A DNA stretch of 64,000 bases from Novacetimonas cocois. GTDB taxonomy: Bacteria; Pseudomonadota; Alphaproteobacteria; Acetobacterales; Acetobacteraceae. Numbering within the stretch: position 1 is the first letter of the stretch; every line of letters begins with the position of its first letter. The DNA lies in the NCBI RefSeq assembly GCF_003311635.1, contig NZ_QEXL01000003.1, forward strand, positions 30,989 to 94,988, read 5' to 3'. The position numbers were made by a program, and so were the translations under genes. The notes beneath the pieces were generated by a model. It did no database searches. It was not told the DNA's origin and worked only from the letters and a program-made list of their open reading frames with translations. This document shows, in pieces, positions 12,717 to 54,519 of this stretch.

Positions 12717-12726
12717 CTGGCCGGAC

Positions 12727-17716: not shown

Positions 17717-17741
17717 AAACCAATGTAAACTTAAAAGAGTG

Positions 17742-17779
17742 CCCCACATTGTGTTGTCTTTGAGCAACACAATGTGGGG
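17742..17779 (+). terminator. Perfect 15-bp hairpin after the M1 aminopeptidase gene
   Basis: CCCCACATTGTGTTG pairs perfectly with 17765-17779 across an 8-base loop, starting 25 bases after the stop. The following sequence has only a weak T run, so it may be a terminator helped by other factors or an mRNA-stabilising stem. Confidence 0.6.
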
Positions 17780-17805
17780 TAAGGTTACACTTTAGTATAT
17801 TCTTA

Positions 17806-17834
17806 TTGAACGGGATTGTTTTCGACTGTGTAAT
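17806..17834 (+). promoter_or_regulatory. Candidate sigma-70 promoter for the first TonB receptor
   Basis: TTGAAC, a 17-base spacer and TGTAAT, ending about 90 bases before the receptor start and after the hairpin of the preceding gene. Position and spacing are good; the -35 box matches the consensus at four of six positions and the -10 box at five of six. Confidence 0.42.
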
Positions 17835-17923
17835 GAGAACACCGATAATTCGCCCATCGGCGCATCGCAAATTGTATGCATGTGTTAGCTGTCGACTGGA
17901 TGTCGTAGGGAGTAGAATTGCTA

Positions 17924-21004: not shown

Positions 21005-21021
21005 TCGGAATGTGTTGAAAT

Positions 21022-21070
21022 ATCCCGGGTTTTCGAGCGATCGAAAGCCCGGGATTATTTTTGTTTTCTT
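21022..21070 (+). terminator. Intrinsic terminator of the first TonB receptor gene
   Basis: A 15-bp stem (ATCCCGGGTTTTCGA against 21041-21055, one G-U pair), four-base loop, then a T-rich tail. It begins 18 bases after the stop codon. Confidence 0.88.
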
Positions 21071-22084
21071 TCATGCCCCGTTGAAACGCGGGATCGACCG
21101 GGTCGTTCATATGAAGGTCCGGCCGCCTGCCCAGCGACGAGTTGGATGGGTGGAAACAACAGACAGAAACCTGGCGCGACAGACCCGGCATTGCGACGGG
21201 CGATCCCGGGATCGAGATAAGCAAAGATACTTTTTCTCTCCTGTCAGGGACTTCCTTTCCCTTCCCTCTGGCAACTGAACAATCTGAAAGCTGTGCTCGG
21301 CTATTTTTCGAGCATCGAGGAAGCAAATTGTTCATTCGATATTTTTGCCAAGACGTGCGTATTAAATCGAAATTCAAATGAATCGAGCACGGGCAAAAGT
21401 GCGCCGCCTCGCTAAGTTTGCAATATCATTAACTTCAAAACATATTTTTCATATTTTATGTTCGTGGAAATTTCATAAGATGTTCAGGATATTACTTTTT
21501 CCCTGTTGGCTAGCCCTGTTCGGGCGCAGGACGTCACAAAACAAAGCTTTTGTGAATTTTTTGTGGCAGGAAGGATATTGGTTTAACGGAAAAAACGTTG
21601 TTTTTTCAAAACGGTAAGCCGATGCATCGTTTTGATGCGATTGTGGAATAAGAATTTATCTTTCTTTTTGATTTGGTTCTCTGATATGATTGAAAAATAT
21701 AAAAGGCATATTTTGGAAGGGATAAAAATAACAGCCGGATAACAGGTTATTTTCTCGCGCCAGCATGGTGCGGAAAAATCCATGAAAATTGCATCTGATA
21801 TTTTGCAAGATAGACTGACGGATGTTGCTTTTTGAACACAAAAGGCGCGTTTGGTTGGTGCTGTCTTTTTTCTGCGTTGAATCTTCCCTCTTCTGACCCT
21901 GTAATGATTTTCATCGTGAAATCATGCTGCGGTGGCCGGCAATGCCGTACGAGGGGGGATAATGAGTAAGACGTTCCGTACTTTTTCCTCACGCCGTGGC
22001 GTGAATATCAACAATATGACGGTGCAGGACACGGAGTGATCCGATGCGGCATCACGTCATGGCTGTGATTGGAAAAAGTCCTCT
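21071..22084. other. One-kilobase gene-free, partly AT-rich region between the two TonB receptors
   Basis: No open frame here has a plausible start, composition or family. From about 21400 to 21850 the sequence is clearly richer in A and T than the surroundings. A hairpin, TCACAAAA-N6-TTTTGTGA followed by a run of T (21534-21561), looks like a terminator with no gene before it, so a small RNA between about 21300 and 21560 is possible. The right end must hold the promoter of the second receptor. Confidence 0.45.
21534..21561 (+). terminator. Orphan terminator-like hairpin
   Basis: TCACAAAA and TTTTGTGA form a perfect 8-bp stem with a 6-base loop, followed by ATTTTTTG. No gene precedes it on this strand for 500 bases. 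Confidence 0.4.
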
Positions 22085-38213: not shown

Positions 38214-39875
38214 TCAGGCTTTCGCCTTTTCAAATAGGGTCGAGACGACCTGCTGTGCTTCCTGCTGGATCTGTTTGAGGTGATCCGCGCTAATGAAGCT
38301 TTCGGCATAGATCTTGTAAACGTTTTCCGTTCCGGACGGACGGACCGCGAACCAGCCATCTTCCGCCGTGACCTTGATGCCGCCAAAGGCAACATTGTTT
38401 CCCGGCGCCTTTGTCAGCCTGGCGCGCACGGGCTGTCCCCCCAGTTCGGTCAGATAGGCAAGCTGATCGGCCGAAACCTTCTTGAGCAGCGCCTTCTGTT
38501 CGGGATCGGCCGCGACATCGATGCGGGCATAGAACGGGGTGCCCAGCTTCTGGGTCAGCTGCGTATAGATCTGGCTGGGGTCAAGCTTTGTCTTGGCCGT
38601 GATTTCCGCCGCCAGAAGGCCGAGGATGATCCCGTCCTTGTCCGTGGACCATGCGCCCGCGTCGTTGCGCAGGAAGGACGCGCCCGCGCTTTCCTCTCCA
38701 CAGAAGCCCAGGGAGCCGTTGCTCAGCCCGTCGACGAACCATTTGAACCCGACCGGCATTTCCACGAACTTGCGGCCCAGCATGTTGGCGACGCGTTCGA
38801 TCATCGCGCTGCTGACGAGGGTGATGCCAACGCCGGCATCCTTGCCCCACCCGGCCCGGTGGTTGAACAGGTAGGAGATTGCCGCCGAGAGGTAATGGTT
38901 GGGATTCATCAGCCCGGATGTACGGGTGACAATTCCATGACGGTCCGCATCGGTGTCGTTGGCGAACGCGACGTCAAATTTATCGCGCAGGTCGATCAGG
39001 CGCGCCATCGCATAGGGTGATGAGCAGTCCATGCGGATCTTGCCATCCCAGTCGGCGGTCATGAAACGGAAGGTGGGATCGACTTCCTCGCTGACGACCG
39101 TTGCATTGATGCCGTAACGCTCGATGATCGGCTTCCAGTAATGAACCGCGGCACCGCCCAGCGGGTCGATTCCGATCTTCACGCCCGATTCACGGATGGC
39201 CGCCATATCGACGACATTTTCCAGATCAGCGACATAGGGCGTGATGTAATCATACTTGTGGACATGCGGGGAACCGAGGGCCTGCGCATACGCGATGCGG
39301 TGCACGCCTTCCATCCGGGCCTCAAGGAACTCGTTGGCCTTGTTCTGGATCCAGGTGGTGACATCGGTATCTGCAGGGCCGCCATTGGGCGGGTTGTATT
39401 TGAAGCCGCCATCCTCAGGCGGGTTGTGCGACGGGGTGATGACCACGCCATCCGCCAGATCGGTCTTGCGGCCGTGGTTATAGGTCAGGATCGCGTGTGA
39501 GATGACGGGCGTCGGGGTATAGCCGCCATCCTGATCGATCATCACCTGCACCTTATTGGCGGCGAACACTTCCAGCGCACTGGCCAGCGCCGCTTCGGAC
39601 AGGGCATGCGTGTCGATGCCGATGAACAGCGGGCCGGTGATGCCCGCCTTGGCGCGGTAAAGGCAGATGGCCTGGCTGATGGCAAGGATGTGGTGTTCGT
39701 TGAAGCTGTTGCTCAGCGAGGAGCCGCGATGTCCCGATGTGCCGAACGAAACCCGCTGGGTCGGGATCTTCGGATCAGGCTTGCCCGTGAAATAAGCGGT
39801 CATCAGGCGTGGAATATTGACCAGAATGGATGCCGGTGCGGGTTTCCCGGCCAGGGGACTGATATTGGTGGACAT
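38214..39875 (-). CDS. pgm: Phosphoglucomutase (alpha-D-glucose-specific)
   Basis: A 553-residue cytosolic enzyme interconverting glucose 6-phosphate and glucose 1-phosphate, supplying glucan and nucleotide-sugar synthesis. The phosphorylated Ser is in [12 protein letters not shown] (near residue 145), the metal loop in [11 protein letters not shown], the sugar-binding loop in GEESAGASF, and the phosphate-binding loop in [11 protein letters not shown]. The ATG at 39875 follows GGAGA at good spacing. It is divergent from the glycogen/trehalose operon, which needs glucose 1-phosphate. Confidence 0.95.
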
Positions 39876-40485
39876 TAGGTGTCTCCGTGAAAGGATTCTG
39901 GGTATGTGGGGTGTCCGCCTGGACGATCACGGGAATATCTCATTCATTCAATGACGATCTGTACATGATGAAATGTGCCTGCGTCGAGACGGGAAATGGC
40001 AGTTCATGTATTTTTTCGCGGACCTGCGGGAATGGCCATGGGTGGAAGCGATGGACCGCGTGCAGGCGATGTTGAAATACAACGATGTGTCTGTTTCGCA
40101 ACAGTCGCCAGAATGACAAGTTTAAATATGCATGCTCATATCCACATTTCCATAAAATTGGTCATACCCTGTGTTTATACTTTTTCTGTCCTGCGTGGTA
40201 ATTGACGCAGATCATCGGGAATTACTGCCATAATCATGCAGATGTCAGCCGGTTTCCATTATTCCGGCATGTGGCCCAAAATTTCAGGAGAAGACCTTTT
40301 TTCAAGTATTAATTAATATGACTTTTAATAAATTAATCTGAAGGCAAAATAAAATTCAGGAAATATTATGTAAATATCCCCATCCCCTATCCATCACTTA
40401 ACCGTGATTGCCGCACCGCAGCAGTCAGCCTGCGTTGCACGAAGACAGACTGTTCCACGGTTTTTGCAATGGGGGCCTTCCGCGG
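39876..40485. other. 610-base divergent intergenic region, AT-rich at the glgA side
   Basis: No convincing gene. From about 40270 to 40380 the sequence is strongly AT-rich and includes the palindrome TATTAATTAATA at 40307-40318. It must carry promoters for pgm (minus) and the glgA operon (plus). Confidence 0.5.
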
Positions 40486-42069
40486 ATGAATTTTGCCAGT
40501 ACGCATCCAGCCTGTCCGTTGGAACTGCTGTCCGTAGCATCGGAAATGTTTCCTTTTGTAAAAACGGGGGGACTTGGCGACATTGTCGGCACCCTTCCCC
40601 ATGCGCTGGCCCGCCACGGGATCAGGACACGCACGCTGGTGCCGGGATATCCCGCGCTTCTGTCGGCCATGGGAAGCCCTCGATGCGCTGCGCGCTTTTC
40701 GGACGTGCTGGGACATTCCGGGACGATATGGGAAAGTTACTTATGCGGAAATGATATTTTCATACTCGACGTGCCCGCCCTGTATGACCGTCCCGGCGAT
40801 CCCTATATGGGGCCGGATGGAAATGACTGGCCCGACAACGATATCCGTTTCGCCGTTCTGGCGCGCGTGGCCGCACACATCGCGCAGGGCATGATTGACG
40901 GATATCGTCCCGATCTGGTGCAGGCCCATGATTGGCAGGCCGGGCTGACGGCGGCATACCTGCATTATGATGGCTCTGTCGCGCCGCCTGTCATCCAGAC
41001 GATCCATAACCTTTCCTTTCAGGGCTGTTTTCCGCCTTCCGCCCTGTCCCGCCTTGGCCTGCCGGATCGGGCCATGTGTGTCGACGGAGTGGAATATTAC
41101 GGCAATATCGGTTTCCTGAAGGCCGGGCTTCATTTTTCCGCCTGGATTACGACCGTATCGCCCACCTATGCGCGTGAAATCCAGACGCCCGAGGGGGGGA
41201 TGGGGCTTGGCGGGTTGCTGCGGACACGCGCGCGTGTCCTGACGGGCATCCTGAACGGGATCGATACCGACATATGGGACCCGGAACATGATCCCGACGT
41301 CCATTTTCCCTATCGCCTGCGCGATCTTGCGGGACGCAGGCCGAACAAACGGGCGCTGCAGGCGGAATTCGGCCTGCCGCAGGATCCGGATGCGTTCCTT
41401 CTGGGGATTGTCAGCCGCCTGACGATGCAAAAGGGCATCGATCTGCTGTCACAGGCCGCTGACGAAATCCTGCAGGACAATACGCAGCTTGTCGTGGTCG
41501 GCAGCGGGTCCCTGCCGATCCAGCGCGAACTGTCCGCCCTGCAGCGCCGTTTTCCCCGGCGGTTTGCCTGCCATCTGGGATATAGCGAGGCGCTGGGCCA
41601 TCGCATGCCGGCCTCGGCCGATGCCATGCTGATGCCTTCGCGTTTCGAACCGTGCGGCCTGACACAGATGAGCGCGTGCCATTATGGCAGCGTGCCGATC
41701 GCATCCCGCGTGGGCGGGCTGGCGGATACCATCGTCGATGCCAATGCGGCGGCGATCGCGGGCAATGCAGCGACGGGTTTCCTGTTTTCCCCTGTCGATG
41801 CGCAGTCCCTTGTCGCGGAAGTACGGCGCGCGCGCACGGTTTTTCGCGACCCGGCCGCCTGGTCCGTCCTGCAACGCAACGCCATCGCCTATGACGTTTC
41901 GTGGTGTGGCAAGGCGGCGCAATATGCCAACCTGTTCCGTGCGGTTGTCGCGCACGCCCGACCACAAGTGCGCGGCGATGACAACGTGGTTCCCCTGCGT
42001 CGTGACGGTCAGTCCACGCGGCGCGCGATTGCCCGCCAGCCCAGACCACGCACCAGAATCCCGCATTGA
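40486..42069 (+). CDS. glgA: Glycogen synthase (ADP-glucose dependent, GT5)
   Basis: A 527-residue glucosyltransferase extending alpha-1,4-glucan from ADP-glucose. The substrate-binding KTGGLGD lies near residue 25, TIHNLSFQG and SPTYAREI mark the first Rossmann domain, and SRFEPCGLTQ in the second holds the conserved catalytic-site Glu. The ATG at 40486 begins just before the conserved LELLSVASEMFPFVKTGG; longer in-frame starts add unconserved sequence. It leads an operon with glgB, glgX, treZ, malQ and treY. No glgC for ADP-glucose supply is in the window. Confidence 0.92.
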   Translation: MNFASTHPACPLELLSVASEMFPFVKTGGLGDIVGTLPHALARHGIRTRTLVPGYPALLSAMGSPRCAARFSDVLGHSGTIWESYLCGNDIFILDVPALYDRPGDPYMGPDGNDWPDNDIRFAVLARVAAHIAQGMIDGYRPDLVQAHDWQAGLTAAYLHYDGSVAPPVIQTIHNLSFQGCFPPSALSRLGLPDRAMCVDGVEYYGNIGFLKAGLHFSAWITTVSPTYAREIQTPEGGMGLGGLLRTRARVLTGILNGIDTDIWDPEHDPDVHFPYRLRDLAGRRPNKRALQAEFGLPQDPDAFLLGIVSRLTMQKGIDLLSQAADEILQDNTQLVVVGSGSLPIQRELSALQRRFPRRFACHLGYSEALGHRMPASADAMLMPSRFEPCGLTQMSACHYGSVPIASRVGGLADTIVDANAAAIAGNAATGFLFSPVDAQSLVAEVRRARTVFRDPAAWSVLQRNAIAYDVSWCGKAAQYANLFRAVVAHARPQVRGDDNVVPLRRDGQSTRRAIARQPRPRTRIPH

Positions 42070-42108: not shown

Positions 42109-44298
42109 ATGGCGGCGGATTGCAAAGTAATGCCCAGACCGGATGACAAAATCCTTTATGCCATTCCCGATGGAACCGGCGCGCTGTTTGATGGCACCTG
42201 TGGCGATCCGTTTTCCATCCTGGGACGGCATAATGCCGGGTCTGTTGATATCATCCGCGTTTTTTATCGCGATGCGCGCCGGGTGCGTCTGGTTGTCGCG
42301 CGACGCAATGGCGGGTGGGCTGAACGCCCGATGCGCCGCGTTGATGATGGCGGCCTTTACATAGGGCATATTTCCGCAGGGGCGGCCTACCGGCTGAAGG
42401 TGACATGGGCCGACGGGGTGGAGGAAACGGCGGATCCCTATTCCTTTCCCCTGTTGCTCAGTGAACGTGAAATGGACCTCTTCCTGTCTGGCCGGCCGGG
42501 CAGGCTGGATCAGGTCATGGGCGCACGTCCCATGCGGGTCGAGGACGTCGCGGGGGTGCGTTTCGCGGTATGGGCCCCGCATGCGCGACGTGTATCGGTC
42601 GTGGGGGATTTCAATATCTGGGACGGGCGCCGCCATCCGATGCGACTGCGGCATGAGGCGGGCATATGGGAAATATTCATCCCCGGAATTGGCGCGGGGG
42701 AGCGGTACAAATACGAAATACTGGACCATAACGGACGCATTGGCCCGCACAAGTCGGATCCTTTTGCCCTGTGCGCCGAAATCCCGCCCGCCACCGCGTC
42801 GATCATTGTCGCCCCCTCCCCTTTTTCATGGACCGACGGGGAGTGGATGCGCGATCGTGGCTGCAGGCAGTCCGATGATGCCCCCATCGCGATATACGAG
42901 GTTCATGCCCCATCGTGGCGGCGTCCCACGGGCGATCCCGCCCTTACCATGTCATGGGATGATCTGGCGCGTGAACTGCTGCCACATGCGCGGGACGGGG
43001 GCTTCAGCCATATCGGCCTCATGCCCGTCATGGAACATCCGTCCGGCTGGGTATGGGGCTGTCCCCCGCTGGGACTGTTCTGTCCTTCGGCGCGGCACGG
43101 GGCGCCCGAAGGCTTCGCGCGTTTCGTGGATGCATGTCACGGCATGCAGACGGGGGTGATCCTTGACTGGATGCCTGATCGCCTTCCCCCCGACATGCAT
43201 GGGAATGCCTGTTTCGATGGAACGGCATTATATGAACATCCGCATCCCCCCGCCGGTCCCCTGACGGAAGGAAGGCCGCTGTTTTATGATCTGGGCCGTC
43301 GCGAAGTCCGCGGCTTCCTGATCTCCAGCGCCCTGATGTGGCTGGAGCGTTACCACCTTGACGGGCTGCGCGTGGATACGCAGCCTGTTTCGGCGGACCG
43401 GCAGGAAGAAATGGCCGTTTTCCTGCGTGAACTCAACGAAGCCATTGCCGGGCGCGTGCCGGGCGCTGCTGTCATCGCGTCCGATACCCTGTCCACATCC
43501 GGCGTCACAGTGCCCGTGACGCAGGGGGGCATGGGATTTTCCTTTCAGTGTAATACCGCCCTGCCGCGGGTGCTGTCGGCCTATATGGAGCGCGACCCGT
43601 TATGGCGCGGGGGATTTCACGGGGACATCATTGCCGGATCCGATACGGCATTTTCCGAAAAGTTCATCCTCTGTCATGCACATTCCTTCGGCATGCGCGA
43701 CGGGCGGTCGCTGCTGTCGCGTCTGGCCGGGGATGCGTGGCAGAAACAGGCGTGCCTGCGGACCTACCTGTCCTTCATGTGGGGATGGCCCGGCAAGAAA
43801 CTGCTCTTCATGGGGCTGGAACTGGCGCAGGAAAGCGTATGGAATCCCGAAGGGCAGCTGGACTGGGATTCGTCGCGCCTGCCCGCGCCGGTCGGAATGC
43901 GGCGCATGGTGGGGGACCTGAACCGCCTTTATCGTGGTTATCCCGCCCTTCATCGTGGCGACTGCGCGCCTGACGGGTTTTCATGGGTGATTCGCGACGA
44001 TACGCAGAACAGCGTCTTCGCGTGGCTGCGGCATACGGTCGGCAGCGCCCCCGTGCTGGTCATCTGCAACATGACGCCCGTGGTCCGGCATGATTACCGT
44101 GTCGGCGTGCCCTATCGGGGGTACTGGCGTGAAATCCTCAACAGCGACGCGGTTGAATATGGGGGCGCCGGCGTGGGGAACGCGGGCGGGGTGCATGCGC
44201 ACGATCATGGGGCGCACGGGTTTGAACATTCCTGCGTCCTGACCTTGCCGCCCCTGGGCGTACTGTATCTCAGCATGGCGGAGGCCGACCTGTCATGA
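42109..44298 (+). CDS. glgB: GlgB-like 1,4-alpha-glucan branching enzyme homologue with degenerate active site
   Basis: A 729-residue protein with the full GlgB layout: N-terminal domain (GDPFSILGRHNAG), CBM48 (FAVWAPHARRVSVVGDFNIWD), GH13_9 barrel and C-terminal beta domain. The nucleophile is kept (Asp423 in DGLRVDT), but the acid/base Glu of AEEST is Ser458 (IASDTLST) and the third Asp of SHDEVVHGK is Ser526 (CHAHSFGMRDG). The region I His is Arg (DWMPDRLP), and about 18 residues after region II are missing. Flanking sequence (AFSEKFILC, RSLLSRLAGDAWQK, WPGKKLLFMG) aligns without gaps, so this is not a frameshift. It may be inactive as a branching enzyme and serve another role. ATG at 42109; 42130 is an alternative. 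It overlaps glgX by four bases. Confidence 0.82.
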   Translation: MAADCKVMPRPDDKILYAIPDGTGALFDGTCGDPFSILGRHNAGSVDIIRVFYRDARRVRLVVARRNGGWAERPMRRVDDGGLYIGHISAGAAYRLKVTWADGVEETADPYSFPLLLSEREMDLFLSGRPGRLDQVMGARPMRVEDVAGVRFAVWAPHARRVSVVGDFNIWDGRRHPMRLRHEAGIWEIFIPGIGAGERYKYEILDHNGRIGPHKSDPFALCAEIPPATASIIVAPSPFSWTDGEWMRDRGCRQSDDAPIAIYEVHAPSWRRPTGDPALTMSWDDLARELLPHARDGGFSHIGLMPVMEHPSGWVWGCPPLGLFCPSARHGAPEGFARFVDACHGMQTGVILDWMPDRLPPDMHGNACFDGTALYEHPHPPAGPLTEGRPLFYDLGRREVRGFLISSALMWLERYHLDGLRVDTQPVSADRQEEMAVFLRELNEAIAGRVPGAAVIASDTLSTSGVTVPVTQGGMGFSFQCNTALPRVLSAYMERDPLWRGGFHGDIIAGSDTAFSEKFILCHAHSFGMRDGRSLLSRLAGDAWQKQACLRTYLSFMWGWPGKKLLFMGLELAQESVWNPEGQLDWDSSRLPAPVGMRRMVGDLNRLYRGYPALHRGDCAPDGFSWVIRDDTQNSVFAWLRHTVGSAPVLVICNMTPVVRHDYRVGVPYRGYWREILNSDAVEYGGAGVGNAGGVHAHDHGAHGFEHSCVLTLPPLGVLYLSMAEADLS

Positions 44299-46421
44299 CG
44301 ACATGGCCCACCCGGCTGGAGGCAGGCAGTCCCTATCCGCTGGGGGCGACGTGGGACGGGCTGGGGGTCAATTTCGCCGTGTTTTCCGCCCATGCGCAGC
44401 GCATGGACCTGTGCATTTTCGACAAGGCGGGCCGCCGGGAGGTCGCACGTTTCTGCCTGCCGGAATATACTGACGAGGTCTGGCACGGATATCTGCCCGA
44501 AGGGCGCCCGGGACTGCTGTACGGGTTTCGCGCCTTCGGGCCTTATGATCCCGTACGCGGGCACCGCTTCAATCCGCACAAGCTGCTGCTTGATCCCTAT
44601 GCAAAGGGGCTGCACGGTTCGCTGGTCTGGTCCGATGCGCTGTTTGGATACCGTATCGGCGGGCCGCGTGGCGACCTGTCCTTTGACCGTCGCGACAGTG
44701 GACAGGCCATGCCCAAATGCGTGGTAAGCGGCGGCGGATTTGAATGGGGAAAGGACCGCCTGCCCGCCGTGCCGTGGGGACATACCGTCATCATGGAGGC
44801 CCATGTCCGTGGCATGTCGATCCTGCGCGATGACATCCCGCCGGCCGAACGCGGCACGTTCCGCGCCCTGTCGCATCCCGCCACGATCGAATACCTGACA
44901 AAGCTGGGGGTGACGACGCTGGAACTGATGCCCGTGCAGGCATTCGCGCGCGACCGTTTCCTGCTGGAACGCGGGCTGACCAATTACTGGGGCTACAGCA
45001 CGCTGGGGTTCTTTGCCCCGCATCCGGCCTATCTTTCGGATGGGTCGATGCATGAAATGCAGGCCGCGATCCGGCGCCTGCATGCCGCAGGGATCGAGGT
45101 CATCATGGATGTGGTCTATAACCACACCTGCGAAGGAAACGAACTGGGGCCGACGCTGTCATGGCGGGGGCTGGACAATGCCACGTATTACCGGCTGGTC
45201 CCCGCTGACGAACGGCATTTCATCAACGATACGGGGTGTGGGAACACGCTGAACCTTTCGCACCCGCGCGTGTTGCAGATGGTGATGGACTCCCTGCGCT
45301 ACTGGGCGGTGAATTTCCATATCGACGGTTTCCGCTTTGATCTTGGCACCACGCTGGGGCGTGAAGCCTATGGCTTTGATCCATGTTCGGGGTTCTTCGA
45401 CGCCCTGCGGCAGGATCCGGTGCTTTGCCGGCTAAAGCTGATCATGGAACCGTGGGATCCGGGGCCGGGTGGCTATCAGCTGGGCAATTTTCCGCCCGGG
45501 CTGGCGGAATGGAACAACCGTTTCCGCGATACCACGCGCCGGTTCTGGCGCGGCGACGAACTGCAGCGTGGCGACATGGCCGTGCGGCTGTCCGGATCCG
45601 GGGACCTGTTCGACCGTCGCGGCCGACGTCCGTGTGCCTCCATCAATTTCGTGACGGCGCATGACGGGTTCACCCTGATGGATCAGGTCAGCTACGTCGA
45701 ACGCCATAACGCGGCGAACGGCGAAGACGGGCGGGACGGGCATGCCGACAACCTGAGCGCGAACTGGGGCGTCGAAGGGCTATCGGACGATCCGGGAATC
45801 AGCCGGACCCGGACACTCGTGCGCCGTGGCATGCTGGCGACGCTTCTTCTGGCGCAGGGAACACCCATGCTGCTGGCGGGTGACGAATTCGGACAGACCC
45901 AGCAGGGCAACAACAATGCCTACTGTCAGGATAACGCGACAAGCTGGCTTGACTGGTCGCGGGCCGACGAACCACAGGGCCGCGAAATGCAGGCCTATGT
46001 CGCGAAACTGACCGCCCTGCGTCAGGAGCATCCATCGGTCCGGGGCGACACGTTCTGGCACGACCGGCACTGCCCCTCCCCCGATATCACGGACATTTCG
46101 TGGCATGCCGCCGATGGCACGGCCATGACGCCGGAAAAATGGAACGATCCCAATGATCGCGTGCTGGGCCTGCGTCGTGCCTGCCGTCGTCCTGCTGGCG
46201 CGCCGGATGTCACGTTCCTGCTGCTTAATCCCGGTTTTCAGGATGCCACGTGCACGCTGCCCGATCCGGATGATGGGGAGTGGCGCCTGCTGCTTGACAG
46301 CGCGGAGCCATCCGGCCCCCAGACGGGCGAAAGGATGGCGCGCACGGTGCGTGTCGCGGCCCATTCCATCCTGTTCCTGTCTTTCACGCCACAAGGCGTA
46401 GCGAAAGAAATGCCATCATGA
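44295..46421 (+). CDS. glgX: Glycogen debranching enzyme (isoamylase type)
   Basis: A 708-residue GH13_11 enzyme hydrolysing alpha-1,6 branches of limit dextrins. It has an N-terminal CBM48 (GVNFAVFSAHAQRMDLCIFD), then the four GH13 regions: DVVYNHTCEGN, FRFDLGTTLGRE (nucleophile), MEPWDPGPGGYQLGNFP (acid/base) and VTAHDGFTL. All catalytic acids are present, in contrast to its upstream neighbour. ATGA overlaps on both sides (with glgB and treZ) show tight translational coupling. Confidence 0.93.
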   Translation: MTTWPTRLEAGSPYPLGATWDGLGVNFAVFSAHAQRMDLCIFDKAGRREVARFCLPEYTDEVWHGYLPEGRPGLLYGFRAFGPYDPVRGHRFNPHKLLLDPYAKGLHGSLVWSDALFGYRIGGPRGDLSFDRRDSGQAMPKCVVSGGGFEWGKDRLPAVPWGHTVIMEAHVRGMSILRDDIPPAERGTFRALSHPATIEYLTKLGVTTLELMPVQAFARDRFLLERGLTNYWGYSTLGFFAPHPAYLSDGSMHEMQAAIRRLHAAGIEVIMDVVYNHTCEGNELGPTLSWRGLDNATYYRLVPADERHFINDTGCGNTLNLSHPRVLQMVMDSLRYWAVNFHIDGFRFDLGTTLGREAYGFDPCSGFFDALRQDPVLCRLKLIMEPWDPGPGGYQLGNFPPGLAEWNNRFRDTTRRFWRGDELQRGDMAVRLSGSGDLFDRRGRRPCASINFVTAHDGFTLMDQVSYVERHNAANGEDGRDGHADNLSANWGVEGLSDDPGISRTRTLVRRGMLATLLLAQGTPMLLAGDEFGQTQQGNNNAYCQDNATSWLDWSRADEPQGREMQAYVAKLTALRQEHPSVRGDTFWHDRHCPSPDITDISWHAADGTAMTPEKWNDPNDRVLGLRRACRRPAGAPDVTFLLLNPGFQDATCTLPDPDDGEWRLLLDSAEPSGPQTGERMARTVRVAAHSILFLSFTPQGVAKEMPS

Positions 46422-48196
46422 GCACACGTCACGCCTTTCGCACCACGATGGGGGCGACCATGCTGGATCCGTCGCGCACGCTGTTCCGGCTGTGGGCCCC
46501 GTCATGCGATGACGTCTCCCTCCAGATCGAGGACGGGCAGCCACCGCTTCCGATGCGCAAGGATGCCGAAGGGTTCTTTGAATGTATCGCCCCGGTGGGC
46601 GCGGGCACGCGCTATCGCTATCGCATTGGCCCGGACCTTCTGGTGCCGGACCCGGCGTCACGGGCGCAGCCGGATGACGTGCACGGCCCCAGCATGGTGG
46701 TCGATCCCAACGCCCATGAATGGCGCAGCACGCAGTGGACCGGACGCAGATGGGAAGAAACGGTCATATACGAGGTGCATGTCGGACTTGCCGGTGGCTT
46801 TCGGGCCCTGTGCGATGATCTGCCTCGCCTTGCGGCGCTGGGGGTAAGTGCGGTCGAACTGATGCCGCTGTCGGAATTTCCGGGCGGGCGCAACTGGGGG
46901 TACGATGGCGTGCTGCCTTACGCGCCGGAATCTTCGTATGGCACGCCCGACGATCTGAAGACCCTGATTGATACCGCCCACCGGATCGGGCTGATGGTCT
47001 TCCTTGATGTCGTCTATAACCACTTTGGCCCTGACGGAAATTATCTGGCGCAGTACGCGGCCCCCGTGTTCCGCGCCGGGTCACATACCGCATGGGGGCA
47101 GGCCATTGATTTCAGCGTGCCGCAGGTGCGGACCTATTTTCTGGATAATGCGCTGTACTGGCTGATGGAATACCGTTTCGACGGGCTTCGCCTCGATGCG
47201 GTGGACGCGATCACGGAACGCGACTGGCTGGTGGAACTGCTGATGCGCGTGCGCAGTACGGTTGAACCGGGGCGACGCGTTCACCTGATGCTGGAAAACC
47301 GCAACAATGACGCGGACCTGCTGCGATGCGGGTTCGATGCGCAGTGGAATGACGATGGCCATAACGTCCTGCATGTCCTGCTGACCGGGGAAACCGAGGG
47401 ATATTACGGCAACTTTGAAACCGGCACGGCGCGGGAACTGGCAACCGTGCTGCGTGATGGCTTTCTGTTCCAGGGGCAGGTCGAACCCGTGACCGGCGCG
47501 CCGCGTGGCAGCCCCAGCGGCGACCTGCCCGCCACCAGCTTCATCCTGTTCCTGCAGAACCATGATCAGACCGGCAACCGCGCCTTTGGCGAACGCCTCG
47601 ATGTTCTGGCGGACCCACGTGCCCTGCGGGCGGCCTATGTCCTGCTGCTGCTGTCGCCGCAGATCCCGATGCTGTTCATGGGCGAGGAATGGGGCAGCAC
47701 GCGCCCCTTCCTGTTCTTTACCAGCCATAATGAGGCGCTTGGACATATCGTGCGTGATGGCCGGCGCAGGGAACTGTCGGCGTTTTCATATTTTTCCGAT
47801 CCACGGAAATGCGAAACCATTCCCGACCCCAATGATCCCGCGACGTTCGAGGCCTCGCGCCTGTTGCAGTCGGATCGTCTTTCGACCGCGGCCCAGGACC
47901 GTATCAACCTGACCACGCGCCTGCTTGCCCTGCGGGCGCAATGGATCATCCCGCGCCTGCGTGGCGCGCACGCGCTTGATGCGCAGGCGGTGGGACCCGC
48001 GGCGGTCATGGCGCGCTGGCGCATGAACGATGACGCGATCCTGACGATCCTGCTCAATCTGGGTGCCGCGCCCGTAACGGATATCCCGCCCTGTGCGGAC
48101 CGGCTGCTGTGCGCCATTCCTCCCCGCGAAGTGGCGGAGGAACACCTGCCCGCGTACGGCGTCAGGGTTTTCATGACGGAGGGCGCGCATGGATGA
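46418..48196 (+). CDS. treZ: Malto-oligosyltrehalose trehalohydrolase
   Basis: A 592-residue GH13_10 enzyme that releases trehalose from maltooligosyl trehalose made by TreY. N-terminal CBM48-like domain (LFRLWAPSCDDVSLQIEDG), then barrel motifs LDVVYNHFGPDGNY, FDGLRLDAVDAI, LMLENRNNDADL and LQNHDQTGNRAFG, the last two being diagnostic of TreZ. PMLFMGEEWGSTRPF is also typical. It overlaps glgX by four bases and malQ by eight. Confidence 0.94.
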   Translation: MSTRHAFRTTMGATMLDPSRTLFRLWAPSCDDVSLQIEDGQPPLPMRKDAEGFFECIAPVGAGTRYRYRIGPDLLVPDPASRAQPDDVHGPSMVVDPNAHEWRSTQWTGRRWEETVIYEVHVGLAGGFRALCDDLPRLAALGVSAVELMPLSEFPGGRNWGYDGVLPYAPESSYGTPDDLKTLIDTAHRIGLMVFLDVVYNHFGPDGNYLAQYAAPVFRAGSHTAWGQAIDFSVPQVRTYFLDNALYWLMEYRFDGLRLDAVDAITERDWLVELLMRVRSTVEPGRRVHLMLENRNNDADLLRCGFDAQWNDDGHNVLHVLLTGETEGYYGNFETGTARELATVLRDGFLFQGQVEPVTGAPRGSPSGDLPATSFILFLQNHDQTGNRAFGERLDVLADPRALRAAYVLLLLSPQIPMLFMGEEWGSTRPFLFFTSHNEALGHIVRDGRRRELSAFSYFSDPRKCETIPDPNDPATFEASRLLQSDRLSTAAQDRINLTTRLLALRAQWIIPRLRGAHALDAQAVGPAAVMARWRMNDDAILTILLNLGAAPVTDIPPCADRLLCAIPPREVAEEHLPAYGVRVFMTEGAHG

Positions 48197-50243
48197 ACGT
48201 GTGCTGGTCGCGCGGCTGCGCGCCCTGGGGCTGAGTTCACGCTGGCAGGATGCGGCGGGGCACAGGCATCACGTCAGTACGGATAACCTGCGCCATCTTC
48301 TGCGGGTGCTGGAAAAGGAAGAGGCGACCCTTGAGGAAACGCCCGTCCTGCCTCCGCTTGTCGTGACCGAGGTTGATCGTCCCACCCCCCTGCCCGGTGA
48401 TGTGCTGCGCGGAAGCGGGACATTCCATCTGGAGCTGGAGGATGGCGGATCGCTGGAGGGATTCCTGCGCGCGCAGGCGGATGGCACCTGCAGGCTGCCT
48501 GCCGTGCCGCAGCCCGGATATCACCGGCTGCATGTCGCCGATGCCGTGACGACGCTTGCCGCGGCGCCCGCGCGCTGCTGCAACGTCGCGATGCGGGCGG
48601 GCAGCGATCGTCCGCGCCTGTGGGGACTGGCGGCGCAGATATACGGCCTGCGCACCACGCATGATGGCGGGATCGGGAATTTCAGCGCGGTTGAATCGCT
48701 TGCCCGCCAGGCTGTGGCGCATGGGGCCGATGCGCTGGCGGTAAGTCCGGTCCATGCGATGTTCGCGGCCGTTCCACAGCAGTACAGCCCCTATTCCCCG
48801 TCCAGCCGCCTGTTCCTCAACGTGCTGCTTGCCGATCCGCGCTGTGTTTTCAGCGGCCATGACATCACCATGGCGATGCATGCGCAAAAGGACATGGGCG
48901 ACGACCTGGCGCGTCTGGAAAGTGCGACGTTGATCGACTGGCCACAGGCCGCCCGCCTGCGCATGGCGTTGCTGCGCAGGCTGTATGATGACGTCATCGC
49001 CCCTGTACCACCCGTCGCCATGACCGATTTCGTGGCGCGTGGTGGTGATCCCCTGCGACGTCATGCCATTTTCGAGGCCCTGCACGCGCATGAAATCGGG
49101 AAAGGATCGAAAGGCGGGGACTGGCGCATGTGGCCATCCCCCCTGCACCGTCCCGACAGCGAGGAAGTGGAAGAATTCGCGCGTTCCAATCCGTCCGAGG
49201 TAGGATTTCATGAATTCCTGCAATGGATGGCGGCCACCAGCCTGCGTCGCGCGTGCGAAGGCGCACGTAGCGCGGGAATGAAAATCGGCCTTATCATGGA
49301 TATGGCAATTGGCGTCGATCCGACAGGAAGCCAGTGCTGGGCGCAGCAGGATCAGTTCCTGACCGGCCTGTCGATCGGGGCACCGCCCGATATCCTCAGC
49401 CCGATGGGACAGAACTGGGGGCTGACCGGTTTTTCCCCCATCGGGCTGCGTCGGCATGGATATGCGGCTTTCATCCAGACGTTGCGCGCGGGTTTCGCGC
49501 ATGGCGGCGGCCTGCGGATCGATCATGTGATGGGATTGCAGCGCCTGTGGATCATTCCCGAGGGCGGTGCGCCGACCGACGGGGCGTATCTGGCCTTTCC
49601 GGGGCAGGACCTGATGCGCCTGATCGCGCTGGAATCCCTGCGTCACGAGGCCATCGTGGTGGGCGAGGATCTGGGCACGGTCGCCCCTGCCTTCCGGCGT
49701 GAGGCACGGCGGCATTCCATCATGGGGATGAGCGTCCTGTGGTTCCAGCGCCACAGGGACGGGACGTTCATGGATGCCGGGGAATGGTCCCCCGGCTCTG
49801 TCGGGATGACGGGCACGCATGACCTGCCGACCGTGGCCGGATGGTGGCTGGGAACCGATATCGACTGGCGCGAGCGGCTGAAGCAGGTTGGCCTGCGCCG
49901 GAGCCTGCGTACGATGCGGGCGGAACGTGAGGCGGAGCGCATCGGACTGTGGCGCGCGTTGCATGCGGAGGGGCCATCGGTCCCCGTCCCGTCCATCACG
50001 CCCGAGGGGGCGCAGGAAGTCGTGGATGCCGCCGCCCGGTTTCTGGGAATGACGGCGGCGCAGCTGGTGATCCTGCCTCTGGAAGATGCACTTGGCCTGA
50101 TCGAGCAGCCCAACCTGCCAGGCACGGTTGACGGGCATCCCAACTGGCGACGTCGCTATCCCGCTTCCTCCCGTCCCATCCTGTCGGATGCGGAGGTCGC
50201 GGCCAGGCTGGCGCTGGTGCGTAAAGGGCGCGAGATGTCATGA
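48189..50243 (+). CDS. malQ: 4-alpha-glucanotransferase (amylomaltase, GH77)
   Basis: A 684-residue disproportionating enzyme that moves maltodextrin segments between chains. Conserved blocks are LRTTHDGGIGNFSAVE, NWGLTGFSP, LRIDHVMGLQRLW (nucleophile), VVGEDLGTV (acid/base) and GTHDLPTVAGWW. About 130 residues precede the GH77 core, as in the long bacterial form. In this operon it would rebuild maltodextrins long enough for TreY. It overlaps treZ and treY. Confidence 0.93.
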   Translation: MDERVLVARLRALGLSSRWQDAAGHRHHVSTDNLRHLLRVLEKEEATLEETPVLPPLVVTEVDRPTPLPGDVLRGSGTFHLELEDGGSLEGFLRAQADGTCRLPAVPQPGYHRLHVADAVTTLAAAPARCCNVAMRAGSDRPRLWGLAAQIYGLRTTHDGGIGNFSAVESLARQAVAHGADALAVSPVHAMFAAVPQQYSPYSPSSRLFLNVLLADPRCVFSGHDITMAMHAQKDMGDDLARLESATLIDWPQAARLRMALLRRLYDDVIAPVPPVAMTDFVARGGDPLRRHAIFEALHAHEIGKGSKGGDWRMWPSPLHRPDSEEVEEFARSNPSEVGFHEFLQWMAATSLRRACEGARSAGMKIGLIMDMAIGVDPTGSQCWAQQDQFLTGLSIGAPPDILSPMGQNWGLTGFSPIGLRRHGYAAFIQTLRAGFAHGGGLRIDHVMGLQRLWIIPEGGAPTDGAYLAFPGQDLMRLIALESLRHEAIVVGEDLGTVAPAFRREARRHSIMGMSVLWFQRHRDGTFMDAGEWSPGSVGMTGTHDLPTVAGWWLGTDIDWRERLKQVGLRRSLRTMRAEREAERIGLWRALHAEGPSVPVPSITPEGAQEVVDAAARFLGMTAAQLVILPLEDALGLIEQPNLPGTVDGHPNWRRRYPASSRPILSDAEVAARLALVRKGREMS

Positions 50244-52990
50244 ACGACCTGCGCGCGACCATCCGGCTGCAACTGCATGCAGGTTTTACCCTTGACGACG
50301 CGGCGGCGCGGGTTCCCTATTTCGCGCGTCTGGGGCTGAGCCATGTCTATGCCTCCCCTATCCTGAAGGCACGTCCCGGTTCCACCCATGGGTACGACAC
50401 GCTGGATTATGGCTGCGTCAATCCGGAACTGGGGGGGGAGGACGCGCTGCGTCGTCTGGTCGCATGCCTGCGTGCGCACGGAATGGGACTGATTGCCGAC
50501 ATCGTGCCCAACCACATGGCCGTGGGCGGTTCGGGCAACCGGTGGTGGGAAGATGTGCTGGCATGGGGGCGCGACAGTCGTCATGCCCATTTCTTCGACA
50601 TCGACTGGCATGCTTTCGCGCCGTGGCTGCATGGGCGCATCCTTGTCCCGTTTCTTGACCGTCCATACGGGAAGGCGCTGAAGGACGGGATGCTGCGCCT
50701 TGGCCTTGATGCGCCGACGGGGATGTTCTTCATCCACCATCACGAACATCGTTTCCCGCTCTGCCCGCGCGATTACGGCGCCATGCTGTCTGGCGTGCAG
50801 GCGCCGTCCGGGCTGTGCGAGGAGCTTTCTGCCCTGAGCGCCGACGACACCCGCACGCAGGCATGCTGTCGCGTGCTGTCGCGGCTGGTGGCGTGGAGCC
50901 GGTCGGAGACGGGACAGGCCGCGATCGCGGCACTTCTTGACCAGTACGATCCGGCTGGCGCCTGCGGACAGACCCGCCTGCATGAACTTCTGGAACGACA
51001 GTCCTATCGGCTGGCATGGTGGCGGACGACGCCGGACCTCATCAACTGGCGACGTTTTTTCGATATCACCGGGCTGGCGGCCCTGAGTGTCGAACATGAC
51101 GACGTGTTCGATGCCGTGCATCGTCATGTCATCGACCTGTATGCGGACGGGCTGATCGATGGCGTGCGGGTCGATCATATCGATGGGCTGACGCGTCCGG
51201 CCTCCTATTGCCATCGCCTGCGTCAATGCCTGTCGGCCGTGCGGCACCTGCGTCCGCCGACCGCGCCTGACAGCCTGTCCATCCATGTCGAGAAGATACT
51301 GCATGAACGCGAACATCTTCCTTCATCGTGGAATGTCGACGGGACGACGGGATACGACTTCATGGATCAGGTTTCCGCCGTGCTGCATGACGCGGCGGGG
51401 ACGGCGGTGCTTGACGGGCTGTGGCGCGACCATGTGAGTGACAGCCCCACCTTTGCCATGACGGAACACAACGCCCGTTTCCTGATCCTGCGCAATACAT
51501 TCCCGGCAGAGATGGTCGGCCTGCAGACCCGGCTAGCCATGATCGCGGCGGCGGATATCGATACCCGCGATCATGGCATGGAGCGGATCGGGATCGCCCT
51601 GCAGGCCCTGTTGATGAACTTCCATTACTATCGAACATATTTTTCAGAAAACGGTCATGAACGCCATCATGCGGATCATGTGACGCTCAACATCGCGGCA
51701 AAAGCCGCCCGTTCCGATCTTCTGACGTCATATCATGATGTTCTGGAATGGGTTGCGACCATCCTTGGCAGGACTGGCGGGCAGGATGCCGCGGTATGTA
51801 ATGCGCAGGAACGTTTTGAGCATCTGACGGCGCCCCTTGCCGCAAAATCCGTTGAAGACACGGCCTTTTACAGATACGGGCGATTGCTGTCACGTAATGA
51901 GGTCGGTTCCGACCCGGGGCGGATCTGCCTGTCGCTGGCGCGGTTCCATGATGAAAACCTGCGTCGCCACAGGATGTTTCCGGATACGCTTCTGGCGACG
52001 GCGACACATGACCATAAACGCGGCGAAGATGCGCGCATGCGTATCGCCGTGCTGAGCGGGATTGCCGGACAGTGGCATGCGCTGGTCAATCAGTGGATCG
52101 TGGGGAATGCCCATTGCCGCGAGCATCGGATGATGCCGGACCGCGCGGACGAACTGATCCTGTATCAGGCGATGCTGGGGGCATGGCCGCTGGAACCGTG
52201 GCCGGACGCGGCGGCCCGACAGGATTTTCAGGAGCGCATGGCCGCATGGCAGGTCAAGGCATTGCGCGAGGCAAAGCGCCATACCAGCTGGACGGATCCT
52301 GATACGGAATACGAAAATGCATGCCACGCGTTTCTTGACCATCTGCTGGATCCGGCGATCTCAGGGACTTTCCTGATCGACATGCAGACGCTGGTTGGCA
52401 CGATTTCACCTGCCGCCGCGCTAAATGCGCTGGCGCAGGTCGTGCTGCGCTATACCCTGCCGGGCGTGCCCGATCTGTATCAGGGAACGGAATTATGGGA
52501 TTTCACGCTTGTGGATCCAGATAACCGGCGGCCGGTTGATTATGACCTTCGTGAAAAATCCCTGCGGGACGCGACATCCCTGCAGCAGTTGGCGGCACGA
52601 TGGCGGACGGGGGAAATCAAGCTTCATCTCATCCACCGCCTTCTGAAATTCCGGGCGGAATATCCCCTTTTATTTCAGGCGGGATCCTATGAACAGGTCG
52701 AGGTATCGGGACCGGCGAGGAAACATGTCATTGCCTTTGTGCGGCGATACGAACAGCGATCCCTGCTGACGGTTGTCATGCGTCATTCATGGGGGCTGGT
52801 TCCCTCCCCCCATGATCTGAGGCTTGATACCGACATGCTGGCGCAGACGCATCTGATCCTGCCGCTGACGGGACGCGGGGCGTGGCGGAGCATACTGCAT
52901 GAAAACAGGAGTCATGAAGAAAACAGCAATCTTTCACTATCGTTTCTTCATGGAATCGTCCCGGTGGAGTGTCTGTTTCAGGATGGATGA
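50240..52990 (+). CDS. treY: Malto-oligosyltrehalose synthase
   Basis: A 916-residue GH13_26 enzyme that isomerises the reducing-end alpha-1,4 bond of a maltodextrin to alpha-1,1. Blocks are TIRLQLHAGFTLDDAA, YFARLGLSHVYASPIL, ADIVPNHMA, DGVRVDHIDGL (nucleophile), HVEKILHERE (acid/base) and, near the end, PDLYQGTELWDFTLVDPDN, a TreY hallmark. It is last in the operon; with TreZ it turns the non-phosphorylated glucan pool into trehalose. It overlaps malQ by four bases. Confidence 0.95.
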   Translation: MNDLRATIRLQLHAGFTLDDAAARVPYFARLGLSHVYASPILKARPGSTHGYDTLDYGCVNPELGGEDALRRLVACLRAHGMGLIADIVPNHMAVGGSGNRWWEDVLAWGRDSRHAHFFDIDWHAFAPWLHGRILVPFLDRPYGKALKDGMLRLGLDAPTGMFFIHHHEHRFPLCPRDYGAMLSGVQAPSGLCEELSALSADDTRTQACCRVLSRLVAWSRSETGQAAIAALLDQYDPAGACGQTRLHELLERQSYRLAWWRTTPDLINWRRFFDITGLAALSVEHDDVFDAVHRHVIDLYADGLIDGVRVDHIDGLTRPASYCHRLRQCLSAVRHLRPPTAPDSLSIHVEKILHEREHLPSSWNVDGTTGYDFMDQVSAVLHDAAGTAVLDGLWRDHVSDSPTFAMTEHNARFLILRNTFPAEMVGLQTRLAMIAAADIDTRDHGMERIGIALQALLMNFHYYRTYFSENGHERHHADHVTLNIAAKAARSDLLTSYHDVLEWVATILGRTGGQDAAVCNAQERFEHLTAPLAAKSVEDTAFYRYGRLLSRNEVGSDPGRICLSLARFHDENLRRHRMFPDTLLATATHDHKRGEDARMRIAVLSGIAGQWHALVNQWIVGNAHCREHRMMPDRADELILYQAMLGAWPLEPWPDAAARQDFQERMAAWQVKALREAKRHTSWTDPDTEYENACHAFLDHLLDPAISGTFLIDMQTLVGTISPAAALNALAQVVLRYTLPGVPDLYQGTELWDFTLVDPDNRRPVDYDLREKSLRDATSLQQLAARWRTGEIKLHLIHRLLKFRAEYPLLFQAGSYEQVEVSGPARKHVIAFVRRYEQRSLLTVVMRHSWGLVPSPHDLRLDTDMLAQTHLILPLTGRGAWRSILHENRSHEENSNLSLSFLHGIVPVECLFQDG

Positions 52991-53028: not shown

Positions 53029-53340
53029 TAAAAACGATATCGAAACAAATAAAATGGCAATTAAAATGATACGGATTCTTGTTGCCATTTCGTAAAAATA
53101 AACGTGTGTCAGCAGAAACGCAAATAAAGTGGTTTTTCGCTGAATATGGAATTATGTTTTTTTTGTGGCACCGAGTCCGCGTGGAAACACGGGACATGGC
53201 ATGGGCGATTGAAAATCGTCATGACATGTAAACTGCCTTCATCAGGACATCTGACCACACCGATTCCACAAATAATATTCATGAAAATCAGAAGTAATGT
53301 CGCGTTTTTTGTGACCAAACCCATCAATATGGAGGAAAAC
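53029..53340. other. AT-rich gene-free stretch upstream of the acyltransferase gene
   Basis: About 310 bases with long A/T runs and no supported gene. An in-frame extension of the downstream acyltransferase enters it but does not look like coding sequence. An imperfect inverted repeat lies around 53200-53224. Confidence 0.45.
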
Positions 53341-54519
53341 GTGCGTCGTGAAACGGAGCTTGATGCTGTGCGCGGCATCGCCGCCCTGATCGTGGTATTC
53401 TTTCATTTCTGGTTGATCATGCCAGATGAATGGAAAACGCAGGCGGTAAGGTTTCCCATGCTTATGGGACATTCTTTCAACCTTGAAACCCTGTTCCACT
53501 TTACGCCCCTGCGGCTTCTGATTTCCGGATCGGGAGCAGTGGGGCTTTTTTTTGTCCTGAGTGGATATGTCCTGTCCCTGTCCATATCGCGGCACGGAAT
53601 GGCGTCTTACGAACGTTTTGTCGTGCGCAGGATATGCCGGATATATCTTCCCTTTGTCGCCATCATCCTGTTTGCGGCCCTTATGCTGGTCCTGGTAAAA
53701 AAGGCCCCCCTGACGGGAGTGAGCGAATGGTTCTCGAACGGCCCGTGGTCTGTCTATCCCACGGAGCAGGTCATCATGGGGCATCTGCTGATGACGGGCA
53801 CCGTTCCCCTGCTCAGCCTTGACAACCCGGCATGGTCGCTGGTCATCGAAATGCGGGTTTCGCTGATTTTCCCGGTCCTTTTCGTCCTGATGGAAAAATA
53901 CCGGGCGCAGACGCTTGCCGCTGTCATGATCCTGTATTTTGCCGCCAGCATGTTTCTGAACAGCGTGGGGCAGAATCCGCCCACAACTTTCACGAACAGC
54001 CTCATATTCACCTTTGAATATCTTCCGCTTTTTGTCGTGGGGATTCTTTTTTTTCAGTTCAGGGAAAATATCAGGACTTTTTATGGATCAAGATCTTCGA
54101 TGGTCCGTAATGCCGTCCTTCCCCTGGCGATAATCCTTCTTGGCGTGCCGGCAATCGGACCGGAAAATGCCGTTGGCGTCATAAGGAATCTGATCTGGCT
54201 TGTCTGTACCACAATCGGTTCCGTGGCCACGATCTGTGTGGCGCTGCATAATGAAAGGATATGCGGGTATCTGCAGAAATCCCATATGCAGGGGCTGGGA
54301 CATATTTCATACAGCCTGTACCTCAGCCATCTGGTCATTGTCCTGTCCATGGCGTACGCGCTGAATGCCATCATGCCGGTATGGGCATGGCTGGTGCTTG
54401 CACTGCCGGTTTCCATAGCAGGGGCGACGGCATGTTTCTGGCTGGTCGAATATCCATGCATGCAGGCCGGTTACTGGCTGACGCGGCGGCCGGTGCTCAA
54501 ACCGGAACTGGTGGGGTGA
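53341..54519 (+). CDS. Acyltransferase 3 family membrane protein (OafA/YrhL type)
   Basis: A 392-residue inner-membrane protein of about ten helices that would O-acylate a sugar or surface polysaccharide. The conserved start is ELDAVRGIAALIVVFFHFW, with the catalytic His of the family in VFFHF; LFFVLSGYVLSLSISR and LGHISYSLYLSHLVIV are the other signature segments. The start is taken as GTG at 53341 because GGAGG lies five bases upstream; the ATG at 53329 has none. No soluble SGNH domain is attached. The substrate is unknown and no polysaccharide genes adjoin it. Confidence 0.85.
   Translation: MRRETELDAVRGIAALIVVFFHFWLIMPDEWKTQAVRFPMLMGHSFNLETLFHFTPLRLLISGSGAVGLFFVLSGYVLSLSISRHGMASYERFVVRRICRIYLPFVAIILFAALMLVLVKKAPLTGVSEWFSNGPWSVYPTEQVIMGHLLMTGTVPLLSLDNPAWSLVIEMRVSLIFPVLFVLMEKYRAQTLAAVMILYFAASMFLNSVGQNPPTTFTNSLIFTFEYLPLFVVGILFFQFRENIRTFYGSRSSMVRNAVLPLAIILLGVPAIGPENAVGVIRNLIWLVCTTIGSVATICVALHNERICGYLQKSHMQGLGHISYSLYLSHLVIVLSMAYALNAIMPVWAWLVLALPVSIAGATACFWLVEYPCMQAGYWLTRRPVLKPELVG

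Follow-up and report, generated by a model that had tools for sequence, protein, structure and literature searches.

A glycogen branching enzyme homologue with two of three catalytic acids replaced is maintained in the glgA–treY operon of Novacetimonas cocois

Results

The 64,000-nucleotide stretch of Novacetimonas cocois DNA that we analysed (NCBI RefSeq assembly GCF_003311635.1, contig NZ_QEXL01000003.1, positions 30,989 to 94,988 of the forward strand; hereafter the window) contains an operon of the order glgA-glgB-glgX-treZ-malQ-treY, in which the second gene encodes a branching enzyme homologue with two of the three catalytic acids replaced. This catalytically degenerate operon GlgB, which we name psGlgB (P0001), is present in all four genomes that represent the genus, is under purifying selection, has a catalytic core that is released from constraint, and is accompanied in each genome by a second, intact copy, GlgB2. 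We hypothesize that branching was passed to GlgB2 and that psGlgB is a genus-wide pseudoenzyme, non-catalytic and probably a glucan-binding partner of the GlgA-TreY/TreZ route; we consider the arguments for and against this proposal to be evenly balanced.

Alignment of psGlgB with the Escherichia coli branching enzyme (1m7x; phmmer E 3.1e-152) pairs D353 with D335, R358 with H340, R421 with R403, D423 with D405, S458 with E458, H525 with H525 and S526 with D526 (residue numbers follow the 729-residue open reading frame (ORF); the equal numbering of the two proteins at 458 and 526 is a coincidence). The Asp/Glu/Asp catalytic triad is thereby reduced to its nucleophile, D423 (43375..43377; this and all other features are on the forward strand unless stated): the acid/base Glu is replaced by S458 (43480..43482) and the third catalytic Asp by S526 (43684..43686), this last position being Ser, Ala, Ala and Ala in the four species. 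The region I His is replaced by R358 (43180..43182), and a segment of 18 residues after region II, at the V427/S428 junction (43387..43392), is lost in all four species; the 18 corresponding columns are gaps in every genus copy and are occupied in 12 or more of the 15 intact relatives. Region IV varies between species of the genus. The earlier note, made from the letters of the window alone, had claimed these two replaced acids, the surviving nucleophile, the region I Arg and the shortened segment, and the alignment to a GlgB of known structure confirms each of these residue changes. On this evidence, psGlgB is very likely unable to branch.

We considered several ways in which this conclusion might be mistaken. 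In a predicted model (see below), S458 lies directly after the strand formed by residues 454-457, and H525/S526 just after that at 519-523; the alignment has therefore not slipped, and the 1m7x alignment, the MAFFT alignments and the model strands all agree. Nor did the alignment of the four species yield a clear substitute for the lost acids among nearby residues; such a substitute would, according to the earlier note, have undone its proposal. D459 is not conserved, the other three species having Gly there, and at position 527 the four have Phe, Asp, Glu and Gly. D357 is a new residue that all four copies share, but it lies in region I beside R358, and not after strand 5 or 7. Chance or sequencing error was also rejected, bearing in mind that the His-to-Arg and Glu-to-Ser changes, the loss of D526 and the same deletion are common to four genomes.

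The gene has an open frame of 729 residues (42109..44298), in keeping with the intact reading frame that was originally reported, although its start is probably to be corrected from 42109 to a second ATG at 42130, which would yield a protein of 722 residues: a stop codon lies two codons 5' of this second ATG in two of the three other genus species, and the third is compatible with the same start. This ATG opens a leader motif, MPRxDDKxLY (42130-42159, residues 8-17), that is conserved in all four degenerate copies, and five of its residues do not occur at the corresponding positions of the 15 intact GlgBs that we compared. The protein has the GlgB_N domain (42181..42441, residues 25-111), CBM48 (42517..42768, residues 137-220) and the C-terminal all-beta amylase domain (43984..44274, residues 626-722) on a GlgB fold. 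The Pfam alpha-amylase catalytic model does not match psGlgB at E 0.001, although it does match the intact paralogue; the same Pfam scan found no extra domain beyond the GlgB-type set. psGlgB nevertheless passes the curated NCBIfam cut-off of TIGR01515 (584.8 versus 463.95 bits; 573.9 in the genome search), and falls below the cut-offs of the remaining GlgB models listed.

An AlphaFold2 model of psGlgB was obtained from an alignment of 23 sequences, in which psGlgB is the sole member of its genus (mean predicted local distance difference test (pLDDT) score 79.1, predicted template modelling score 0.83). A fold search with residue ranges of this model matched known branching enzymes, namely 8zqa (Z 47.7, root-mean-square deviation (rmsd) 2.4, 567 residues aligned), the Mycobacterium tuberculosis GlgB 3k1d (Z 47.3, rmsd 2.6, 667 aligned) and 1m7x (Z 46.3, rmsd 2.6, 552 aligned). 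The pLDDT falls below 50 at residues 1-11, 169-174, 213-225, 308-321, 361-390 and 527-530; the stretches at 308-321, 361-390 and 527-530 follow barrel strands 2, 3 and 7.

In all four genus genomes psGlgB occupies the same operon with the same neighbours, and carries Arg in region I, Ser at the acid/base position, the loss of D526 and the same deletion; the substitutions are thus shared by relatives in the same operon, as the earlier note had proposed to check. The species are related, so that this residue loss counts as one event and not four. We also took a residue census of 175 distinct GlgB-like proteins (from 191 hits), in which the other 171 all have the canonical His, Glu and Asp; many of these are from Pseudomonas, and 60 of the census places were chosen from the best matches listed, so that weak or broken GlgBs are under-sampled. 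Among 200 genomes of the family, 138 have a TIGR01515 match at E 1e-100; the listed matches that cover at least 600 positions score 807-958 bits, with the exception of the operon copies of this genus, which score 584, 581, 574 and 533 bits (partial matches in G041, G078 and G178 were set aside, and G026, G105, G108 and G114, with weaker best E values, are outside the listed places). Two GlgB matches occur in 19 of the 138 genomes, and 14 of the 15 that are outside the genus show both copies listed at more than 800 bits; the presence of a second copy alone therefore does not bring decay. In a tree of 54 proteins, the four degenerate copies form one group (100/100), the stem of which measures 0.55 changes per column; next to it (99/95) are the canonical GlgBs of genus g61, G386 and G079, which have the same operon, and the genus's second GlgB is placed elsewhere. 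The tree program flagged one of the four degenerate copies (L011) for unusual letter composition. Taken with the residue census, the tree identifies psGlgB as an orthologue of canonical enzymes that has lost its catalytic residues.

psGlgB is also maintained by selection on its protein. The ratio of nonsynonymous to synonymous substitution rates (dN/dS; a simple Nei-Gojobori estimate that is rough at dS values of up to 1.4) is 0.158-0.200 in all six species pairs, which is similar to that of treY of the same operon (0.150-0.208); for comparison, the values are 0.133-0.154 for GlgB2, and 0.114-0.200 (15 pairs) and 0.101-0.219 (10 pairs) for canonical operon-type GlgBs in two other genera. In a simple neutral simulation with 500 runs per setting, a single run kept the frame at 0.1 substitutions per site and none did so at 0.2, 0.4 or 0.6; approximately 10 stops had accumulated at 0.2. 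We rejected a decaying gene on the grounds of this simulation and of dN/dS, both overall and by region. The earlier description of the protein as maintained yet unable to branch is therefore upheld in its first part and very probably, judging from the residues, in its second.

The constraint on psGlgB has also shifted within the protein. We compared it with 15 intact sequences (four second copies, six from g61 and five from g43), and asked which of their invariant columns are kept by all four degenerate copies: these number 20/20 in GlgB_N, 40/46 in CBM48, 28/46 at residues 257-348, 38/71 at 349-465, 9/42 at 466-540, 22/29 at 541-625 and 30/37 in the C-terminal domain. Among themselves, the degenerate copies are most invariant in CBM48 (fraction 0.76) and GlgB_N (0.67), and least at 466-540 (0.32); the second GlgB of the same species is most invariant at 466-540 (0.91) and least in GlgB_N (0.54), and has a similar fraction in CBM48 (0.79). 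By region, 133/196 columns are invariant at 25-220 of psGlgB versus 91/192 at 349-540 (odds ratio 2.3, p 6e-5), as against 134/196 and 172/192 in the intact paralogue (odds ratio 0.25, p 2e-7), and there is no such difference between N-terminal part and core in two other genera (p 0.90 and 0.62); because the species are related, neither these column counts nor the p values amount to independent tests. Identity between the degenerate copies and g61, set against that between g61 and g43, is 0.63/0.59 in GlgB_N, 0.74/0.75 in CBM48 and 0.40/0.74 at 466-540. The catalytic core, which is the most conserved part of the intact paralogue, is thus released while GlgB_N and CBM48 stay conserved. This release does not extend to the operon partners: of the columns that are invariant outside the genus (sets of 4 to 10 sequences each), the four genus genomes keep 158/170 in GlgA, 293/325 in GlgX, 140/149 in TreZ, 182/206 in MalQ and 207/229 in TreY, that is 88-94%, but only 171/284 in GlgB. 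Several residues, namely D357-R358-L359, P378-H379, G388, P390, W70 and W560, are fixed in the four degenerate copies and unseen in the 15 intact proteins, which hints at a gained surface rather than mere loss.

The earlier note had also supposed that psGlgB might act as a glucan-binding scaffold or as a regulator. Judged by column conservation and by alignment of individual sites, psGlgB preserves the domains with which other GlgBs bind glucan. Twelve oligosaccharide sites have been described for the E. coli branching enzyme, with one residue listed for each (PMC10254366). Those of sites I (W586), IV (W159, in CBM48), V (W544) and VI (W628) are Trp in 4/4 degenerate and 15/15 intact proteins; in psGlgB, W171 (42619-42621) pairs with W159, and W626 with W628. 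At site VIII, where E. coli has Tyr, all four degenerate copies have Trp, as do g61 and g43. Site XII (F294), placed by the same source in the donor-chain region, is Phe in 15/15 intact proteins, and Ser, Ser, Thr and Ser in the degenerate copies. At sites II, III, VII, IX, X and XI most intact relatives also differ from E. coli. Of 21 comparable Trp columns without variation in the intact set, all four degenerate copies keep 18; positions 388 and 485 are lost in all four, 481 is kept in two, and a 22nd Trp lies in the deleted segment. This pattern fits a psGlgB that would have given up the cleft and kept its outer surface.

The search for another branching enzyme in the genome, which had been suggested as a check, found one intact GH13 GlgB. 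This protein, GlgB2, is encoded on another contig at C74, has canonical catalytic residues, scores 912.9 bits on TIGR01515 (psGlgB, at 573.9, is 339 bits lower), and is the only other GlgB over the cut-off; its gene adjoins those of a TreS-maltokinase fusion, a GlgE-type protein and another GlgX. No GH57 branching enzyme was found by PF09210, in a search of which the control was positive in 3 of 14 known genomes. A pair of GlgBs over the cut-off is present in all four genus genomes; each of six relatives from four other genera has one (extra matches are far below the cut-off); this single GlgB is canonical and is followed on the same strand by GlgX-, TreZ- and mostly TreY-type matches, as in the operon. 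GlgE was not found in the four of these relatives that were checked. Within the genus, GlgE domain N/S and the TreS C-terminal maltokinase, the only model by which TreS was sought, were found in three of the four genomes. The fourth, G189 (a 470-contig draft), has no match to either, nor any TreS or GlgE in the 6.2 kb upstream of GlgB2, although GlgB2 and its neighbouring GlgX are present. By the logic applied to Chlamydiae (PMC7935935), it is likely that GlgB2 is kept because psGlgB cannot branch. In N. cocois itself we found no glycogen phosphorylase, despite glgA, two glgX and two glgB genes; GlgC, likewise, had no match over the cut-off, and two OtsA-like proteins, at 553 and 508 bits, fall short of theirs (565).

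The genes that surround psGlgB are as follows. A divergent phosphoglucomutase gene, pgm (38214..39875, reverse strand), lies upstream at the same place in all four species. It is followed by glgA (40408..42069); no other glycogen synthase in the genome passes the family cut-off. Downstream are glgX (44295..46421), the start of which overlaps the glgB stop (ATGA) here and in the other three species, and treZ (46418..48196), malQ (48189..50243) and treY (50240..52990), each assigned by profile match. After treY in all four genomes is a gene for an acyltransferase_3 family protein (53146-54519). Three operon partners have substitutions of their own that are common to the four genomes: TreZ residue 295 changes LENE to LENR (Glu in 10/10 outside-genus TreZ proteins), a change possibly co-adapted with the degenerate GlgB; GlgA residue 368, an Asp that is invariant outside the genus, is Ser or Asn; and GlgX residue 408, likewise an outside-invariant Asp, is Asn. 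At a distance from the operon, pieces of the window at about 11217-24000 (22% of a 24 kb query, at 78% identity) are similar to part of a Komagataeibacter saccharivorans plasmid that carries a CocE/NonD hydrolase, a TonB receptor and an oligopeptide symporter.

Discussion

We propose that an ancestor of the genus would have come to possess an additional, intact GlgB within a GlgE/TreS-maltokinase/GlgX cluster, and that branching would then have passed to this copy. Still before the divergence of the four species, the operon GlgB would have lost two acids, together with the region I His and the loop that follows region II, and it would have been kept because its non-catalytic parts still mattered. 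The move of branching to GlgB2 is well supported. CBM48 and the N- and C-terminal surfaces most likely would bind the alpha-glucan made by GlgA, so that psGlgB might tether or organise GlgA, GlgX, MalQ, TreZ and TreY on unbranched chains and leave these linear, to the presumed benefit of trehalose formation; it would thus be kept to hold linear glucan for the trehalose enzymes. In Pseudomonas aeruginosa, GlgA makes linear glucan from UDP-glucose, TreY/TreZ convert it to trehalose, and MalQ and GlgX reshape it (PMC8084333). A more specific form of our proposal, in which psGlgB is a dedicated non-catalytic subunit of the trehalose pathway that holds GlgA-made linear glucan and gathers GlgX, MalQ, TreZ and TreY while GlgB2 serves the storage pool, we consider a reasonable prospect that falls short of an even one. 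The earlier note had suggested that psGlgB might leave linear maltodextrins for TreY/TreZ. This needs amending: psGlgB is very probably non-branching, but the cell has the intact GlgB2, and linear chains would therefore need separate pools or kinetics, beyond a mere lack of branching.

A number of observations weigh against this proposal. The catalytic core is not free of constraint, since regional dN/dS in the barrel is 0.06-0.28, and CBM48, being about as conserved in the intact paralogue as in psGlgB, is not special by itself. psGlgB has the identical residue at just 4 of the 12 E. coli sites, and one of these residues, W171, is inside the low-pLDDT stretch 169-174. The conserved Trp residues may have been kept for folding, from which the same pattern would be expected; moreover, the plant protein MKIP1 retained its new function when its CBM48 Trp residues were changed (PMC13172542), and the kept Trp residues of psGlgB are therefore no proof that glucan binding is important. 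GlgB2 could still branch GlgA-made glucan, as overexpressed GlgB can in P. aeruginosa (PMC8084333). Finally, D353, R421 and D423 are retained in all four copies, and H525 in three, so that psGlgB may perform some other chemistry. We regard an enzyme that works through the retained nucleophile as improbable, bearing in mind that there is no acid at the acid/base or third-acid place and no conserved substitute adjoining, that few of the invariant columns survive at 466-540 (9/42), and that region IV differs among the species.

Non-catalytic isoamylase subunits exist in plants, and by analogy psGlgB might regulate another enzyme, either by competing with GlgB2 or GlgX for glucan or by forming a heteromer with GlgA or GlgB2 that alters activity. 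Its retention next to glgA and to glgX, the start of which it overlaps, is consistent with such a role, and the four-species fixation of D357-R358-L359, W70 and W560 suggests a gained contact surface; we judge this rival to be rather unlikely, yet worth serious attention. Recruitment outside glucan metabolism has a precedent among branching enzymes, in that plant class III enzymes became MKIP1 (PMC13172542), and the leader motif common to the four copies could be read in the same sense; against this, psGlgB stays in the glucan/trehalose operon in every genome and has acquired no Pfam domain, and we think recruitment of this kind quite unlikely. That psGlgB is a relic, its frame kept only through translational coupling to glgX, draws on the ATGA overlap found in all four species, but coupling preserves a frame and not amino acids, whereas dN/dS is low throughout and the N-domain is no less similar to that of g61 than are the N-domains of two intact genera to each other; this explanation is very improbable indeed.

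psGlgB has the fold and domain order of bacterial GlgBs such as 1m7x and 3k1d and passes TIGR01515, but differs from them in lacking the acid/base, the third acid, the region I His and the region II loop. Dead branching enzymes are already known in plants: MKIP1 (Arabidopsis BE1, class III) keeps CBM48 and amylase domains, has two triad Asp residues replaced, and lacks branching activity in several species, although, as that source describes it, MKIP1 acts in plastid intron splicing with a maturase partner and has a new MSR domain (PMC13172542), while psGlgB remains in a glucan operon. We found no bacterial GlgB pseudoenzyme kept by selection in the open-licence literature that we searched. 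The nearest bacterial case found is the GlgA-GlgB fusion of Waddliaceae/Criblamydiaceae, the branching part of which was inactive in a Waddlia chondrophila assay, and alongside which a GlgE-operon GlgB2 is kept (PMC7935935); there, however, the inactivity is ascribed to the GlgA part and the pathway may be disappearing, whereas psGlgB is a separate protein that has lost its residues and is under purifying selection. P. aeruginosa has a similar pair of clusters, one of glgA/treZ/malQ/treY/glgX and another of glgE, treS/pep2 and glgB, but that account lists glgB with the glgE cluster only (PMC8084333), unlike the present genus, in which a degenerate GlgB is also in the glgA operon. The mode of action that we propose resembles that of PTST1/PTST2 and FLO6, non-catalytic CBM48 proteins that interact with glucan and with starch synthase or isoamylase; compared here by description only, they are not presented in that source as derived from branching enzymes (PMC6243121).

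Because psGlgB passes TIGR01515, automatic annotation would assign to this operon a branching step that it almost surely lacks. The genus and its relatives also provide a natural before-and-after series, from the single intact GlgB of related genera, to a degenerate GlgB with GlgB2 in this genus, and on to G189, which has both GlgBs without GlgE or TreS-maltokinase matches. These findings bear on how cells with both GlgA and GlgE routes separate linear trehalose glucan from branched glucan, a question that PMC8084333 leaves unresolved, and on a possible independent function of the non-catalytic surfaces of branching enzymes. Should psGlgB indeed serve the trehalose pathway as a subunit, it would parallel, in bacteria, the non-catalytic proteins that target glucan in starch synthesis, in a cell that would spend one glucan pool on trehalose and reserve its second GlgB for the storage pool.

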